The notes beneath the pieces are model-generated. The model was not told where the DNA came from. It did no database searches and was given only the letters and a program-made list of their open reading frames with translations. Of a stretch of 33,203 nucleotides of DNA, positions 11,777 to 28,950 are shown piece after piece. The stretch is from NCBI GenBank assembly GCA_003554865.1, contig PWHJ01000220.1, positions 1-33,203 of the forward strand, written 5' to 3'. Position 1 is the first letter of the stretch. Each line of letters opens with the position of its first letter. This DNA comes from Bacteroidota bacterium (GTDB lineage Bacteria; Bacteroidota; Bacteroidia; Bacteroidales; PUMT01). A program made the translations under genes and the position numbers.

Positions 11777-13000
11777 TCAGGCGGCTTTGAGTTTTTCCAG
11801 GTTTAATTTTTCAATTTTTTCCCGTGCAAATTTAAGGTCAATAGTTAACTCTTTAGTTTTGGTCGAGGGTAACTCATACATGGGATCTATCATAATTGCC
11901 TCGCAAATAGAGCGAAGGCCCCTTGCACCAAGGTTAAATTCAATTGCTTTGTCGACAATGTACTCGAGAGCTTCTTCATTAAAACTTAGTTTTATTCCGT
12001 CCATTTTCAGCAATTTAATGTATTGCTTAATAATGGAATTTTTCGGCTCTGTGAGAATTGCCTTAAGTGCATCCCTGTCAAGGGGATTAAGATATGAAAG
12101 TACGGGCAGCCTGCCTATTATCTCTGGTATGAGACCGTAAGATTTCAGATCCTGAGGAGCTATATACTGTAACAAATTATCGCGGTCAATATTTTCGTCT
12201 TGTGCATTAGCCTTGTATCCTACAACTTTTGTGTTCAGTCTTTGTGCAATTTTCTTTTCTATTCCGTCAAAAGCCCCCCCGCATATAAAAAGGATATTTT
12301 TGGTGTTTACAGCGATCATTTTCTGATCCGGATGCTTCCGTCCCCCCTGAGGCGGTACGTTAACAACAGAGCCCTCTAGCAGTTTTAAGAGCCCTTGTTG
12401 AACGCCTTCCCCGCTGACATCTCGTGTAATAGAGGGATTATCGCTTTTACGGGCAATTTTGTCAATTTCATCTATAAAAACAATACCCCTTTCAGCTGCT
12501 TCCAGGTTATAGTCTGCAGCCTGAAGAAGACGTGTCAGTACACTTTCTATATCTTCTCCTACATAGCCGGCCTCTGTCAGAACAGTTGCATCAACTATGG
12601 TGAAGGGCACCTGCAGCATCAGAGCTATCGTGCGGGCAAGAAGAGTTTTGCCGGTTCCGGTTTCTCCTACCAGAATAATATTTGATTTTTCAATGTCAAC
12701 ATCATCTCTGGCATTTTTTTGCTTCTCCTGGGTAAGCCTTTTATAATGATTGTATACAGCTACTGATATATATTTTTTTGCAGCTTCTTGTCCTATGACG
12801 TATTGATCAAGAAAATCCTTTATCTCTGATGGCTTAAGAAGTTTAATGTTTTCAAGGTTAAATTCGCTTTTGCTTTTAACCTCTTCCGTTACGATATTAT
12901 ATGCCTGTTCGGCGCAACTGTCGCATATCTGACCAGATATACCAGCTATCAGCAGTTTGGAATCTTTTTTGTTTTTGCCGCAGAAAGAACACTTTTCCAT
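11777..13000 (-). CDS. clpX: ATP-dependent Clp protease ATP-binding subunit ClpX
   Basis: ClpX is the hexameric AAA+ unfoldase feeding ClpP. The 407-residue product has the N-terminal zinc-binding domain (Cys4, Cys7, Cys26, Cys29), Walker A GETGTGKT (112-119), pore loop GYVG (145-148), Walker B IVFIDE (173-178), and the conserved [14 protein letters not shown]. The loop that carries the ClpP-docking IGF tripeptide in E. coli reads VGY here (260-262). Unlike the common clpP-clpX arrangement, it is separated from clpP by a 626-residue oxidoreductase gene. It has a candidate promoter of its own at 13044-13051. Length is normal for Bacteroidota (about 405-415). Confidence 0.97.
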
Positions 13001-13103: not shown

Positions 13104-14984
13104 CTAAAATTCCCTTAGCACTTCATGTGCTCCTTTGTGGATCTCATACCAGAATTGCAATGATGCTTCATTTGTGTTTTTTTCAAATTCCCCCAGCCAT
13201 TTGATTAATTCAGGATTGTTGTCCCCCTCTTCCTTTTTCTTTTTTAAAAAATTGAAAACAAAGTCCATATTTCTTCGGGACTCCCAGAATATGGATGCAT
13301 TTCTGCTGTGAATCCTGCTGGCGGTCATTTTAACGGAATTCAAAAATTTTTCTTTTTCACCGAAAAGCTTTCCGACTATTTCGGGCACAAGCTCTTCAGC
13401 CCACGCCCTGTGAAAGCGGCAAAAACCAATATTGTCAATCATTAATTCCTGAAGCATTCTGCGTGCATTTTCACGTCCCAGCTCCCGCGGCTCAATAAAT
13501 TTTTTGCCGTAGTTCATATAATATTTCCCCATTATGCTCATGGGAGACAATACACCCGGAGTCCAGTACTGATTGGGAACCATCCAGCCGTGTCTTGCAA
13601 ATCCGTTGAAAACGAACAGATCAATAATGCGCTTGTTTCTGGCATGCGCAAGTGACCGGGCAAATTTACGCGCACCTTCCCTGAGGTTTATTTTCCCGTT
13701 TTCTTTTATTGCCTCCTCAAGCAGGTTTATTGCCAGTGAAGCATTATGCATCGAATCGTTCACAATATCAAACCTTTCCGGAGTGAACACGGGTTTGTCT
13801 TTAACACCAAGGTCTTCAGGTTCAAGAAGGTTTTCATGGAGACACTCCATAAGCCAGGCTAACACGCCTCCTATGCTTATGGCATCAAAGCCCATGCTGT
13901 CGGCTTCCCGGTTAAGGGCTTCTGCGGCTCGCTGGTCAAAAATACCGCAAAGAGGTCCCATTGTCTGATATGGTTCAAAATCCTTTTTGAATTTTTTGTA
14001 AAATTTTTTACAAACAGCAGCACAGGGCTCACCACAGTTTTTTTGCTGCTTTTGATTTATTGTTTCCTCATTGAATTGTTTAAGGTAATGGTTAACGATA
14101 AACTTTTCGTGAAGGTCGGCACGTTCTTTGTCACTCCAGTATATGGTTCTGTAGTTGAAGGCCAGAATATTATCCTTCACCGTAGTAAAATTTACACCAA
14201 AGGTGCCGCCTGTATTAAATGCCGGGTCATACCTGTATTTGGTGGTGGCTTCTATATCCTTGGCGGCCATTTTCTTTTGGTAATGATCCTGAAACCATGA
14301 ATCTGCAACGCTTCGGTCGCGAAAATCCTCATCAACGAAGGTGCCTCCGAATATTACAGCTGCAATACCGTGTATTTTAAGCATCTTTGTCCCGAAACCG
14401 CCTCTTCCTGCCCACGTGTCTGCTTGTGTCAGTTTCCCTTTGTTAACGGGGGCTGAACCTATAGCACCCAGATCGGTGTAAAGTGAAGCGGGACCTGTAG
14501 CCAGAACCCTGGGATCTTTTTCGTAACGGTGGCCATACATTGAAAGGCAATGCTCCATCAGGGAATAGACTCCCTTTTCACCTTTATACCAAATTTCATT
14601 GAGATTAACCGGGCGCAGCTCCACCTCGATTTCTTCTCCGTGTGATCGGTTTAGGTAGAGGATTGAGGGTGTGCGGGCTTTACCAACTATTGACAGCAGG
14701 TTTATTCCAAGATTGTCAAAAACCAAGCCGGCTCCTCCCATAGAGGAAATGAAAAATCCGTGCCAGCAAGGACTGTAACCTGTGAAGAATAAACGGTTGG
14801 AGCCCGGGAATATACTTCCAGCCAAAAGCCCGGTACCTATGCTTAGGCTGTCATGCTTTCTTGAAAGATGAGCGCCCAGATCGACGGGGCCCCAGAAATT
14901 TCCAAGCTCATAGCGACCAATTTTATAAAAACCGGTTCCGGCATCAACAAATAGTGTCTTCAGATGCGACTTGTTCATTTGCAT
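13104..14984 (-). CDS. Aldehyde ferredoxin oxidoreductase family protein (tungstopterin/Fe4S4)
   Basis: The 626-residue product belongs to the AOR family, which uses a tungsten (or molybdenum) bis-pyranopterin and one [4Fe-4S] cluster to oxidise aldehydes or reduce carboxylic acids with ferredoxin. Visible marks are the N-terminal domain with TWAGRGGFGTKM (190-201), cluster cysteines Cys317, Cys321, Cys325, a distal Cys522 in DNIGFCRF, and the DAISIGG motif (367-373) of the cofactor region. The first three cysteines are spaced Cx3Cx3C rather than the Cx2Cx3C of Pyrococcus AOR. Length is typical (605-630). It lies between clpP (159 bp upstream) and clpX (103 bp downstream) on the same strand. 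No pterin-synthesis or ferredoxin gene is nearby. The aldehyde substrate is unknown. Confidence 0.92.
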   Translation of the reverse strand: MQMNKSHLKTLFVDAGTGFYKIGRYELGNFWGPVDLGAHLSRKHDSLSIGTGLLAGSIFPGSNRLFFTGYSPCWHGFFISSMGGAGLVFDNLGINLLSIVGKARTPSILYLNRSHGEEIEVELRPVNLNEIWYKGEKGVYSLMEHCLSMYGHRYEKDPRVLATGPASLYTDLGAIGSAPVNKGKLTQADTWAGRGGFGTKMLKIHGIAAVIFGGTFVDEDFRDRSVADSWFQDHYQKKMAAKDIEATTKYRYDPAFNTGGTFGVNFTTVKDNILAFNYRTIYWSDKERADLHEKFIVNHYLKQFNEETINQKQQKNCGEPCAAVCKKFYKKFKKDFEPYQTMGPLCGIFDQRAAEALNREADSMGFDAISIGGVLAWLMECLHENLLEPEDLGVKDKPVFTPERFDIVNDSMHNASLAINLLEEAIKENGKINLREGARKFARSLAHARNKRIIDLFVFNGFARHGWMVPNQYWTPGVLSPMSIMGKYYMNYGKKFIEPRELGRENARRMLQELMIDNIGFCRFHRAWAEELVPEIVGKLFGEKEKFLNSVKMTASRIHSRNASIFWESRRNMDFVFNFLKKKKEEGDNNPELIKWLGEFEKNTNEASLQFWYEIHKGAHEVLREF

Positions 14985-15143: not shown

Positions 15144-15827
15144 TTACTTCTGTTTTTTGGAGTTTCTGGTCAGCACTTCGTCAATCATGCCATATTCTTT
15201 TGCCTCTTCTGCGGACATCCAGAAATCGCGGTCGGCGTCTTTTTCAACTTTTTTGTAGGAAACACCGGTATGATCGGAAATTATTTCGTACAGCTCTTTC
15301 TTAAGCTTTTGTATCTCCCTTACAGTGATTTCAATATCTGCAACAGGACCCTGAGCTCCCCCCATGGGTTGGTGGATCATAATTCTTGAATGCCTCAAGC
15401 CGGAGCGTTTACCTTTTGTGCCGGCACAAAGCAGAACGGCTGACATTGAGGCTGCAACGCCGGTGCATATGGTGGTGATATCTGAACTTATATATTCCAT
15501 TGTGTCATACATGCCCAGTCCGGCATGAACCGATCCCCCCGGGCTGTTTATGTAAATCTGAATATCTTTGGATGGGTCAGATGATTCAAGAAAAAGCAAC
15601 TGGGCCTGGACAATATTGGCAACATAATCATCAATGGGAAGTCCAAGGAATATTATCCTGTCCATCATCAGTCTTGAAAATACATCCATTGTAGCTATGT
15701 TGAGCTGGCGCTCCTCGATAATCGTCGGGGAAATGTAACTGCTTAGAACTTTCTTGTAGCTGTCCAACCGGGATCCGCTTATTCCCTGGGAAGTCGCATA
15801 TTTACGGAATTCATCTTTTGATTGCAT
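15144..15827 (-). CDS. clpP: ATP-dependent Clp protease proteolytic subunit ClpP
   Basis: ClpP forms the tetradecameric serine-protease barrel used with ClpX. The 227-residue product contains the catalytic triad Ser127 (GVAASMSA), His152 (RIMIHQPMGG) and Asp201 (DADRDFWM), plus the ERQLNIATMDVFSRLMMDRI start of the mature fold. About 30 residues precede the usual core, more than the short E. coli propeptide, and may be a propeptide. The gene begins 100 bp after tig. The next gene downstream is not clpX but the oxidoreductase. Identity is certain. Confidence 0.97.
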   Translation of the reverse strand: MQSKDEFRKYATSQGISGSRLDSYKKVLSSYISPTIIEERQLNIATMDVFSRLMMDRIIFLGLPIDDYVANIVQAQLLFLESSDPSKDIQIYINSPGGSVHAGLGMYDTMEYISSDITTICTGVAASMSAVLLCAGTKGKRSGLRHSRIMIHQPMGGAQGPVADIEITVREIQKLKKELYEIISDHTGVSYKKVEKDADRDFWMSAEEAKEYGMIDEVLTRNSKKQK

Positions 15828-24580: not shown

Positions 24581-26659
24581 TTATTCGATCTTAAAAATTT
24601 CATTTTCAAGACCGGTGTTCATTCTGATCTCAATAACTTCCATGGTAATTGACTGAGGTCCTGCCTGCTCGATTATTTTAAAAGGATATTTAAAAGTGTT
24701 TATAGTTCTGTAATCACTGAAGGTTGTTGTCTGTGTTATTCCTCCCATTGGAGATTCCTGAGTTGCAACTGTGCGAAGTCTTAAACCTGTTTCAGTATCA
24801 AAATAGTCTGTTCTTTCAATACCGGTCTGTGATTTAATGAATATTCTGTAGGCATTTTTGCCATCTACTGTTTCTATACCGTCGAGTTCAACCTCCAGCC
24901 CCATTTCATCAAAATACAATTCGGGGTTGAGCATGAACTGAAGCTTCATTTTTTCAATTTCTTCATCCCCCAGCATCATCTCCCCCTGAGGGGTTTTGAT
25001 TATCCCCTTGTTTCCGTCAAATATTTGTTCCTGAAGTATATTGCCTCCCATGCTCATTGAAAAATAATATTTGTCGGGTGCCTTACGGTGTGTGAGAGTT
25101 TGAATGCTCATTCCCTGCGTGGAGGCCTCCATTTCAACGGTTAAGTCTTCCATTTTTTCAAGTAACTGCCTGCCGCCTGAAGCATCAATGTATTTTTCAA
25201 TGATATTTTCGGCGGTAACACCTTCGGGTATTTCCTGATCTTTCAAATCAAGCGGCCTGCCGAAAGGGTCAAAGAACTCTACCTCTCCTGTGGGGCTGAA
25301 TTTTTCAAGTGTTTCGGCAACTTCCCTGTTTCCTGCGACAATTATATATGTATTGTCCGGAAGCAGATGCTTCTCTGCCATTTTTTTAATTTTTTCTGAG
25401 GATACGGTGTTGAGTCTTTCAAGGTATGTTGCATAATAGTCATCCGGTAATCCATAGCGCTCAATGTTAAGGGCAAAATTTGCCACGGTTCTCGGACTCT
25501 CCAGAGACCGGGCAAAACTGCCTGTCATAAAATTGCGTGTCAGATCAAGAGTTTCATCATCAACCGGCTCGCTCCTCAGGCGTTCCATTTCGTAAAGAAT
25601 TTCTGCGATTGTACTGTCTGTTACCGAATTCCGGACTTCAGTGCGGGCATTGAAGCGTCCTGACAGCCGGTAGGTTGAAATGGAAGATCTGGCACCGTAC
25701 GTATAGCCTTTGTCTTCCCTCAGGTTTTGCATTAGCCTGCCTGAAAAGATCCCTCCGCCAAGAATGTTGTTCATTATACTTGTAGAGATAGCGTCTGGAT
25801 GGCCCGGGGAGAGATCGACCGGGTATGTTACAGAAATTAACGACTGAACGGCACCGGGACGCTCGGCAAATGCAACTCTAATACCTTCAGGGGGGGCGGG
25901 TTTTTGGTATTTGTGGCCGGGGACCTCGGCCGGCTTCCAGTCTCCGAAATATTTTTCCACAAGAGTCTGGGCCTCCTTTACGTCTGTGTCTCCTACAATA
26001 ACCATATAGGATACATTAGGCCTAAAGTAGGTTTCATAATAATCCCTGCATTTTTCAATGGTTATATTATCCAGTGTCTCTTCAGTTACAATTTCTCCGT
26101 AAGGGTGGTCTTTACCGAAAAGCAAAGCGGAGGAGATGTTGTCAACCATTGAGCCTGCATCTGTTCTGACAGTGCTGAGGGCAGACCTGGATTGCCTAAG
26201 GCTGCGCTCCAACTCTTCTTCGGGGAAAGTGGGATTTAGTAAAATGTCTGACATAAGCTCAAGTAGCGGTTTTTTGTGTCTTGTAAGTGAAGAACCGAAC
26301 ATTCCCCGCGAGTGGGTGCTTATTGATGCACCCAGGAAATCTGTTTCTTCGTCAATCTCCCTCTTTGATCTGTTTTCTGTACCGGTTTTCATCAATTCTC
26401 CGGCCATACTTACATATCCCTTGGCTTCTTTTTCCAGCACCCTGTCTATGTCAAGTGTGATCTGGAAGGAAACCACCGGAACGGTGCGATTTTCGACAAC
26501 AATTACCCTTATTCCGTTTTTTGTGGTAAATGTTTCATAATCGCCTATCTGGATTACCGGCGGGGGACCGGGCTGGGGAGGAACGCTTCTGTCAAGCTGG
26601 GCATTTATTGGTAATTGCAGAATTACCAGTGCCAGTGTTATGAAGGTAATTTTTAGCAT
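24581..26659 (-). CDS. M16 peptidase-like protein lacking the zinc site, with extra C-terminal domain
   Basis: The 692-residue protein has a signal peptide (MLKITFITLALVILQLPINA, cut before Gln21), then an M16 N-domain (about 40-200) and C-domain (about 205-430). Aligned by eye with its neighbour, the HFFEH zinc motif is replaced by SMAGE (84-88), so all key residues are lost, while the LREDKGYTYGA substrate-binding motif of the C-domain is kept. This is the pattern of the non-catalytic subunit of M16B heterodimers. Residues about 465-692 form an added domain (AENIIEKYIDASGG... DYFDTETGLRLR) resembling LolA-like lipoprotein-carrier beta folds. It lies 21 bp after the catalytic partner gene. 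Confidence 0.9.
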   Translation of the reverse strand: MLKITFITLALVILQLPINAQLDRSVPPQPGPPPVIQIGDYETFTTKNGIRVIVVENRTVPVVSFQITLDIDRVLEKEAKGYVSMAGELMKTGTENRSKREIDEETDFLGASISTHSRGMFGSSLTRHKKPLLELMSDILLNPTFPEEELERSLRQSRSALSTVRTDAGSMVDNISSALLFGKDHPYGEIVTEETLDNITIEKCRDYYETYFRPNVSYMVIVGDTDVKEAQTLVEKYFGDWKPAEVPGHKYQKPAPPEGIRVAFAERPGAVQSLISVTYPVDLSPGHPDAISTSIMNNILGGGIFSGRLMQNLREDKGYTYGARSSISTYRLSGRFNARTEVRNSVTDSTIAEILYEMERLRSEPVDDETLDLTRNFMTGSFARSLESPRTVANFALNIERYGLPDDYYATYLERLNTVSSEKIKKMAEKHLLPDNTYIIVAGNREVAETLEKFSPTGEVEFFDPFGRPLDLKDQEIPEGVTAENIIEKYIDASGGRQLLEKMEDLTVEMEASTQGMSIQTLTHRKAPDKYYFSMSMGGNILQEQIFDGNKGIIKTPQGEMMLGDEEIEKMKLQFMLNPELYFDEMGLEVELDGIETVDGKNAYRIFIKSQTGIERTDYFDTETGLRLRTVATQESPMGGITQTTTFSDYRTINTFKYPFKIIEQAGPQSITMEVIEIRMNTGLENEIFKIE

Positions 26660-26680: not shown

Positions 26681-28006
26681 TTATTTTTCCGTTTCCGGCA
26701 GGAAATAAAGGACCACCCTGTTGTCTTCCCTGAAGTATTGATTTGCTGCCCTTAAAATATCTTCCCTTGTTACTTTCATGTAGTTGTCAATTTCAGTGTT
26801 GATGCGGTTTGCATCACCCAAAAGCAGGTGATAGGTGGCCAGGTTGTTGGCGCGGCTTGCAATTGTTGTATTGCTGTTTACAAAATTGTTTTCCATCTGG
26901 TTTCTGAGTTTTTCCATCTCGAATTCAGAGATAAGCTCATTGCGTGCTTTTTCCAGTTCCTCATTTATGGCTTTTTCAAGAACATCCGGGCCGGTGCCGA
27001 GATTGGGAAGTGCAAATATGATTGCAAGCCCCGGGTGTTCCAGTGCCAGGGGCATTGCCTGGACGGCCATAGCAATCTGCTGTTCGTCAACAAGTGAACG
27101 ATGAAGCCTTGAGCTTTGCCCCCTTGATAATAGCGATGCAAGCATGTCAACTGCATAGTAATCCTCTCCCCCTATTTCCGGTATATGATAGGCCTGGAGC
27201 ACAAGGGGAAGCTGAACATTATCGAAAACGGTGTCGCGAACCTCGTGCTTTCTGACTGGCTCTGAAGCAGGGGGGCGGTATATTTCTTCAGTCCCGGCCG
27301 GTATATCGGCAAAATATTTATTTACCAGCTTTTTTGCCTTTTCTGTATCAATGTCGCCGGCAATTGTTAACACCACGTTTTGGGGAACATAGAACCTTTT
27401 GTGGAATTCATGAAATTTGTGGTCCTCGGCATTACGAATATGATCTTCTCTGCCCAGTACATCCCATTGATAAGGGTGATCAGTAAAAGCCCTGCTCACG
27501 GTTTCAATCAAAAGCCTGCCGTATGGAGGGTTGTCCCGTACCTGCTTCATTTCTTCAGTTACAACATCTTTTTGGGTTGCAATACCTGTTGAATCAACAC
27601 TTGCATGAAGAAGGCGTTCCGACTCCAGCCAAAGGCCAAGTTCAAGCTGGTTAGAGGGTAAAAGAACAAAATAGTAAGTTACATCCTGAGATGTATAAGC
27701 ATTCAAAGTGCCGCCGGCTCCTTCCACATACCGGTCGAATTCTCCGCGCTTAATGTTTTTTGTACCCTCAAACATAAGGTGCTCAAAAAAATGTGCAAAC
27801 CCGGTTCTGTCCGGGGCTTCATTTTTTGAACCAACATGATACATCATAGTTACACCAACAACAGGTGTTGTGTTGTCCTGGTGAAGTATAACATGTAACC
27901 CGTTATCAAGTGTGTATTCTACAAAATCGATACGGGTATCCTGTCCCTTTAGAATGCCGCTGCTGACAAGGCACAGGAAGATTACATAAAGCAGGGTTTT
28001 TCTCAT
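26681..28006 (-). CDS. M16 family zinc metallopeptidase (catalytic subunit)
   Basis: The 441-residue product has a signal peptide (about residues 1-21), a DNGLHVILHQDNTTPVVGVT start of the M16 fold and the inverted zinc motif HFFEH (72-76) with the distal glutamate in VVTEEMKQ (about 151-152). The C-terminal half is an M16C-type domain, but the Arg/Tyr pair that binds substrate termini is not kept (LVDEQQIAMAV where the partner has LREDKGYTYGA). The two proteins therefore complement each other and probably form a periplasmic M16B heterodimer degrading peptides. It is the upstream gene of the pair. No promoter box is recognised. Confidence 0.94.
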   Translation of the reverse strand: MRKTLLYVIFLCLVSSGILKGQDTRIDFVEYTLDNGLHVILHQDNTTPVVGVTMMYHVGSKNEAPDRTGFAHFFEHLMFEGTKNIKRGEFDRYVEGAGGTLNAYTSQDVTYYFVLLPSNQLELGLWLESERLLHASVDSTGIATQKDVVTEEMKQVRDNPPYGRLLIETVSRAFTDHPYQWDVLGREDHIRNAEDHKFHEFHKRFYVPQNVVLTIAGDIDTEKAKKLVNKYFADIPAGTEEIYRPPASEPVRKHEVRDTVFDNVQLPLVLQAYHIPEIGGEDYYAVDMLASLLSRGQSSRLHRSLVDEQQIAMAVQAMPLALEHPGLAIIFALPNLGTGPDVLEKAINEELEKARNELISEFEMEKLRNQMENNFVNSNTTIASRANNLATYHLLLGDANRINTEIDNYMKVTREDILRAANQYFREDNRVVLYFLPETEK

Positions 28007-28161
28007 TTTATTAAAGGTTTTATTAGAAGGGTGTTTTTTACATGGCTGTTTAAAAGGAGAGGTGTAACTTACAGCGAATTTAGTTTTGTTAATTGTTGTT
28101 TTTTTAATTTAAAATAAAGTTAAAAAATTTTTGTCAGCGGCAAAAAAATTTAGATAATTTT

Positions 28162-28380
28162 TTAAAGATTTTTATCCGGGCAGATCTATTCCCACTACTG
28201 CGGCTGATTTTTCAGCCACATGTCAAACCTCGCCGGTATAGTGTTATTTCGTTTTATGTGCCTGCTGCAGGTGACTATATGATGGTTTTCTCCTGCTATT
28301 TTAACCAGCTCAACAGGTCTTCCCGGTATCTTCAGTGCATTGTACATCCGGTGGCTTTTGCCGGGGGAGACATTTGTGTC
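28162..28380 (-). pseudogene. Relic of S9 (prolyl oligopeptidase-like) peptidase gene, 3' end only
   Basis: Within a 491-bp stretch without an intact gene, the minus strand from 28380 encodes DTNVSPGKSHRMY, then GRPVELVKIAGENHHIV and FDMWLKNQPQ, matching the extreme C-terminus of acylaminoacyl-peptidase-type S9 enzymes including the catalytic-His region (GENHHI). The frame is then broken: stop at 28195-28197 where the family usually has Trp (TGG to TAG), WE, a second stop at 28186-28188 where Glu is expected (GAG to TAG), then ICPDKNL and a final TAA at 28162-28164, like the usual ELYPDKNL end. Nothing homologous is readable upstream of Asp at 28380, so the body and catalytic Ser and Asp are gone. 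The rest of the gap (28007-28161 and 28381-28497) is AT-rich and holds nothing I recognise. Confidence 0.8.
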
Positions 28381-28497
28381 AGTCTAAAGATAATGTTTTG
28401 TTCAAAATTTTGTACCTCAATAGTGTCGCCCGTTTAGGCCTGGCGGTTGGAAAGTTATAGTATTTGCTTTAATTTCGGATGATTAAATTTCATTGAT

Positions 28498-28950
28498 ATG
28501 AGAGCTGTAATTCAACGAACAAAAAGGGCTGCGGTTAACATTGACCGTTCAGAAAAAACCGCAATAGGAGAGGGTATGCTCGTACTGCTTGGGATAGAAC
28601 ATGAAGATACTGTTGAAGATGCAGTGTGGTTAAGTAAAAAAATTTCCCGGCTTCGTATTTTTGATGATGAAAACGGAGTTATGAACCGCGATATAAGAGA
28701 AGTTAGCGGGCAAGCCCTGGTTGTAAGTCAGTTTACCCTCCATGCCAAAACTAAAAAAGGAAACAGGCCTTCTTATACAAAAGCTGCTCCACCCGGTAAA
28801 GCCGTTCCTCTTTATGAGAAATTTGTCCAGCAACTGACCGAAGATGTCGGAAGAACTGTAGAAACCGGTGAATTCGGGGCAATAATGGATATAGAGATTG
28901 TAAATAGCGGACCTGTAACAATTTTCATAGATACTAAGCAAAAAGAGTAA
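28498..28950 (+). CDS. dtd: D-aminoacyl-tRNA deacylase
   Basis: Dtd removes D-amino acids (and glycine mischarged on tRNA-Ala) from tRNAs. The 150-residue product is full length (E. coli 145) and carries both active-site motifs: SQFTLHA (77-83) and the cross-subunit NSGPVT (136-141, Gly-Pro motif), plus KGNRPSYTKAAPP (87-99). The MRAVIQRTKRAAVNID start is standard. It lies 32 bp before the MFS gene and may share its transcript. It is preceded by the S9 peptidase relic on the other strand. No oddity. Confidence 0.97.
   Translation: MRAVIQRTKRAAVNIDRSEKTAIGEGMLVLLGIEHEDTVEDAVWLSKKISRLRIFDDENGVMNRDIREVSGQALVVSQFTLHAKTKKGNRPSYTKAAPPGKAVPLYEKFVQQLTEDVGRTVETGEFGAIMDIEIVNSGPVTIFIDTKQKE

Follow-up and report, generated by a model that had tools for sequence, protein, structure and literature searches.

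The window considered here, meaning the whole 33,203-nucleotide stretch of contig PWHJ01000220.1 that was analyzed, carries two M16-family genes on its minus strand and a divergently oriented dtd gene on its plus strand. The first M16 gene (26681–28006) is intact and encodes a peptidase with the motif HFFEH, whereas the second (24581–26659) encodes a family member without the HxxEH motif. The dtd gene (28498–28950), which codes for D-aminoacyl-tRNA deacylase, is likewise intact (Pfam Tyr_Deacylase, E = 2.6e-55). As previously described, the gap between the first M16 gene and dtd measures 491 bp (28007–28497), and within it, at 28162–28380 on the minus strand, lies what appears to be the C-terminal end of a lost S9 peptidase gene, upstream of the M16 genes. 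Reading across the gap, a spacer of 155 bp (28007–28161, minus strand) separates the M16 gene from the stop codon of this relic, compared with 114–281 bp in seven relatives with an intact gene. On the other side of the relic is a putative deletion scar of about 60–66 bp without assignable homology (28381–28446), followed by a segment that likely represents the retained dtd-proximal part of the ancestral dtd–S9 intergenic region (28447–28500, including the three bases of the dtd start codon). Elsewhere in the window, an aldehyde ferredoxin oxidoreductase-like gene (13107–14984; AFOR_N, E = 3.8e-17; AFOR_C, E = 6.3e-16) separates clpX (11780–13000) from clpP (15147–15827), two genes that are usually adjacent.

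Translation of the minus strand reproduces the boundaries, the orientation, the PDKNL end and the 73-codon length given in the preliminary description, with 72 codons running from a DTN segment to the natural stop, TAA. Two in-frame TAG codons are present at codon 62 (28195–28197) and codon 65 (28186–28188), where Trp and Glu had been expected. This expectation is exact for the genus, as the two congeners examined (G001 and G002) carry TGG and GAG at these positions. Among nine intact copies from the family, Trp is found at the first position in all nine, but the second position is mostly Asn (five copies, versus three with Glu and one with His). The Cys reported near the relic end is located at codon 67 and corresponds to Tyr in eight of the nine copies and to Phe in the other. 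An additional Tyr-to-Cys change, absent from the preliminary description, occurs at codon 38, where all nine copies have Tyr. A third TAG sits in the scar and is reached by the match to the G001 protein, which extends two codons past the relic. Alignment to G001 revealed no indels within the 72 codons, and the DNA aligns without gaps at 154 of 221 identical nucleotides. The letters DTN and HHI are both retained. The relic starts at the Asp of DTN, which we take to be the catalytic Asp of S9 enzymes, and the assignment of catalytic residues in the DTN/HHI region receives loose support from alignment to PDB entry 8wt1, the structure entry nearest to the intact ortholog.

Several searches bear on whether the resemblance to S9 peptidases could arise by chance. 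The relic yields a best score of 93.6 bits in blastx against ten intact S9 proteins, compared with a best score of 26.6 bits from 1,000 base shuffles of the same 219 bp. In the opposite direction, the S9 protein of G001 searched against the entire host genome matched the relic at 76.4 bits (E = 2.3e-21). Matches to the relic at E ≤ 0.01 were found in 21 of 60 genomes (the host being counted in both figures), and the best nine outside the host all come from the same genus or family (G001–G006, G011, G013, and G014). These nine provide the alignment to S9 C-termini that had been proposed as a check, with 57–63% amino acid identity over 71–72 residues, and each matched copy is one unbroken frame of 866–928 codons in which neither stop occurs. 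Based on these sequence comparisons, we consider the relic to be a homologue of the S9 C-terminal catalytic domain and not a chance similarity.

Curated libraries alone would leave the relic doubtful, and its S9 origin is settled because of the orthologs and their synteny. Unlike intact S9 prolyl oligopeptidases (PF00326), to which the orthologs of G001 and G002 align at 152 and 144 bits, the relic has the last 72 codons only and scores 15.9 bits (E = 0.0092), under the Pfam cut-off of 22.6. Searches of NCBIfam and of PDB sequences with the relic gave no match at E ≤ 10. Thus, a reader of the raw sequence could detect a relic that domain libraries scored below cut-off.

An intact S9 gene at the corresponding locus in relatives, which the preliminary description had suggested looking for, was indeed found. 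Full-length S9 proteins (~865 amino acids) are encoded in 9 of 16 family genomes at E ≤ 1e-80, the host being among the 16. In seven of these nine (G001, G002, G003, G004, G006, G011, and G014), dtd and the first M16 gene flank the gene, which is oriented as the relic is, and in the remaining two (G005 and G013) the gene adjoins dtd on a contig that stops before M16. The second M16 gene is also on the contig in six of the seven syntenic genomes, and the contig of G011 terminates inside the first M16 gene. Besides the host, six family genomes have no S9 match at this threshold (G007, G008, G009, G010, G012, and G015). All of these except G007 were left uncounted as losses, since their M16 ortholog or dtd either escaped detection or is at a contig end. 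In a survey of M16 loci in named genomes, covering the 80 best loci out of at least 586 (contig ends cut many of them), the order dtd, close S9, M16 appears at two loci, L050 and L051, which belong to family genomes already counted (G001 and G006); at L086, L105, and L124, the nearby S9 protein is just 22–32% identical.

The orthologs of both congeners carry, in this order, the segments GASYGG, DTNVPP, and DHHI, and the intact proteins of relatives are predicted to be secreted, given N-terminal signal-like stretches recognized by eye. The nearest NCBIfam model of the intact ortholog is Dpp5 (NF053518), at 209 bits and far under its cut-off of 900. A second dtd gene occurs in G006 on contig C95 (L148 7024–8612). 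Beside it, a second S9 gene is truncated by the contig end, and its remaining N-terminal portion is 42–43% identical to that of G001; this arrangement reflects either duplication or bin contamination. The clade probably inhabits soda-lake sediments. In a soda-lake sediment study (PMC6146748), B1Sed10 is used as a dataset label.

The extent of the missing sequence can be estimated from the dtd side of the gap. Compared with the loci of five relatives, the 54 bases next to dtd match the dtd–S9 leader of G002 at 41 of 54 columns (E = 9e-4), and they align with the G001 leader too. The nucleotide match to the S9 gene begins at about position 28382, and the facing ends of the leader and S9 matches are 66 bp apart here but 2,476 bp apart at the corresponding points in G002. 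Because the leader has been kept, these distances indicate a net loss of ~2.4 kb that includes the catalytic-Ser segment. This agrees with the earlier claim that the remainder of the gene was deleted, as everything upstream of the DTN codons is missing. In G001, GASYGG starts at residue 710, which is 84 residues ahead of the residue corresponding to the start of the relic (794 of 865). The catalytic Ser (GxSxGG), the propeller, and the start codon of a working enzyme are all absent here. Positions 28381–28497 give at most 17.3 bits in blastx against the ten S9 proteins, and the scar has no nucleotide match beyond one or two bases to the five relatives' loci. When 28381–28452 was searched against the host genome for a mobile-element origin, one match other than itself was obtained at E < 1. 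Scar bases 28401–28426 (26 bp) match host contig C167 (9055–9080) at 88% (E = 0.009).

A truncated gene could also be produced if an intact S9 gene had been collapsed, or a chimeric join introduced, during metagenome assembly or binning. The host species is represented here by one metagenome assembly, a draft of 243 contigs (96% complete, 4.3% contaminated), which gives this explanation some footing. However, a misjoin would spare the S9 end itself, yet 18 of the 72 relic codons specify a residue or stop that none of the nine intact family copies has, two of these being the stops. Moreover, the flanking genes are ordered as in the congeners, the sequence on the dtd side of the gap aligns with the leader of a congener, and a search of the host genome with the G001 protein reveals no close copy of the 5′ portion elsewhere. 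We therefore judge an artefact to be very unlikely.

A dispersed intergenic repeat was also noticed. Its core, CATGTGAAATCGACC, has five exact matches in the host genome (none for a reversed-pattern control), one in G001 located 65 bp upstream of the S9 frame, none in G002, and two neighboring matches upstream of dtd in G010. Core matches are located at L040 11868–11882 and L147 94–108 and 158–172, all on the minus strand, and near position 1500 of L182–L186. In four of the five host copies, the core is preceded by an arm, ATTTCACAT, that is complementary to ATGTGAAAT of the core, and the repeat may be a palindromic or MITE-like element of small size.

Signs of decay extend beyond the two stops. 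The relic breaks 13 of 42 sites that are invariant in the family (codons 1–70), whereas each of the nine intact copies, when left out in turn, breaks none or one of 42–43. The host lineage is an outgroup to G001 and G002 on a fairly long branch (0.21), and G006, which is similarly isolated (0.20), breaks no invariant site. Between the relic and G001, 27 of 72 residues differ, and between G001 and G002, 7 do, whereas six flanking proteins are 78% identical between the host and G001 and 84% identical between the two congeners. The binomial probability of 27 or more differences is 0.002 at the 22% divergence of the flanking proteins and 0.013 at 25%. A wider set of 18 intact copies was made up of the nine family copies and nine of the twelve other matching loci, leaving out L021 (whose match is off the offset used) and L023 and L024 (weak matches). 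Measured against this set, the relic departs from the consensus at 3 of 12 invariant sites, and distant intact copies do so at as many as 3 of 15, so that, judged by these counts, the control with distant copies does not discriminate. A branch codon model returned an omega of 0.13 for the relic (likelihood-ratio P = 0.35 against background and P = 0.06 against 1), on a branch that mixes functional and dead time and with synonymous sites that are saturated, so that it speaks neither for nor against neutrality.

Constraint of the kind expected if the stump were still used, whether to encode a small protein or to act as a leader or regulatory element of the M16 genes, would be compatible with this codon test. 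A mechanical ORF list contains an ATG-started frame of 50 amino acids inside the relic (28195–28347), and the lack of indels would also fit such a use. In addition, four sigma-70-like sites were found in 27900–28600, compared with 1.6 (sd 1.4) for shuffled sequence; all four, however, are on the plus strand and do not point toward M16. The promoters of Bacteroidota are of another type than the sigma-70 consensus, and for this reason the scan says little. Over the same interval, a terminator pattern scan found none, and a search of Rfam at E ≤ 1 gave three matches, all far under their gathering scores (the best at 24.1 bits versus 80). The ATG of the short frame is simply the ancestor's internal Met codon (Met in both congeners), the broken invariant sites argue against a conserved product, and M16 and dtd are intact in G007 with no recognizable S9 stretch between them. 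We regard continued use of the stump as highly improbable.

Still less credible, to the point of being negligible, is the proposal that translation reads through the stops or recodes them, despite the two TAGs standing within an otherwise open frame. TAG terminates 5 of the 27 predicted genes of the window and therefore serves as a stop here, and readthrough would have to serve a gene with no start, no signal-like N-terminus, and no catalytic-Ser segment.

With a probability that we put at roughly 95%, the relic would be a non-functional pseudogene fragment of a secreted S9 serine peptidase of ~865 residues, ancestrally encoded between dtd and the M16 pair. The disabling changes of a pseudogene are present (the ~2.4-kb deletion, the pair of nonsense codons, and substitutions at 13 of 42 invariant sites), as is an intact ortholog at the equivalent locus in relatives (seven of nine, the other two being cut by contig ends). 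The initial reading of this stretch as a decayed S9 peptidase relic is thereby supported. We propose that a deletion of ~2.4 kb took away the promoter side of the S9 gene and, with it, the start codon, the signal-like N-terminus, the propeller, and the segment containing the catalytic Ser. Its endpoints presumably left both the dtd leader and the region upstream of M16 untouched. What remained, an untranslated 3′ stump, would then have gathered mutations, and the first point mutation may have come before or after the deletion.

There are 20 places in the host genome that match Peptidase_S9. The stump aside, host matches to the G001 S9 protein are at most 36% identical, and therefore the ortholog appears to have been lost while other S9 proteins remain. 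The loss was plausibly tolerable because the genome keeps at least 12 other S9 proteins. In G007, 243 bp separate M16 from dtd on a single contig (L146 6011–6253, C211). No S9 match above 21.9 bits and no recognizable relic were found in this gap, nor was an S9 ortholog found elsewhere in G007 at E ≤ 1e-80. This genome groups with the S9-bearing G005 and with G009 in a clade of 100% support, within which the G005–G007 pair has 60% support; deeper branching in the sister genus is poorly resolved (37–49%). G007 probably represents a second, independent loss, and two losses are the simplest reading.

Bacterial pseudogene remnants subject to deletional loss have been described in Salmonella (Kuo and Ochman 2010, PMC2916853). 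Like the pseudogenes treated in that report, the relic is an inactivated, mostly deleted, and degraded fragment in a spacer whose counterpart is intact in sister lineages. Its host is an uncultured member of the Bacteroidales instead of Salmonella, and the two cases otherwise show no substantive difference. Our literature search found no publication joining three or more of the terms S9 peptidase, pseudogene, Bacteroidetes, and M16 peptidase.

The relic is therefore a further example of a well-known kind of pseudogene remnant, and the process is ordinary gene loss caught part-way. It offers a clean case of such loss from an uncultured lineage of the Bacteroidales, without changing anything general. 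Because the M16 genes persist both in the host and in G007, they can do without the S9 gene. The relic suggests that an S9 gene found in synteny with a pair of living M16 genes is dispensable, and that it has probably been lost twice in one family.
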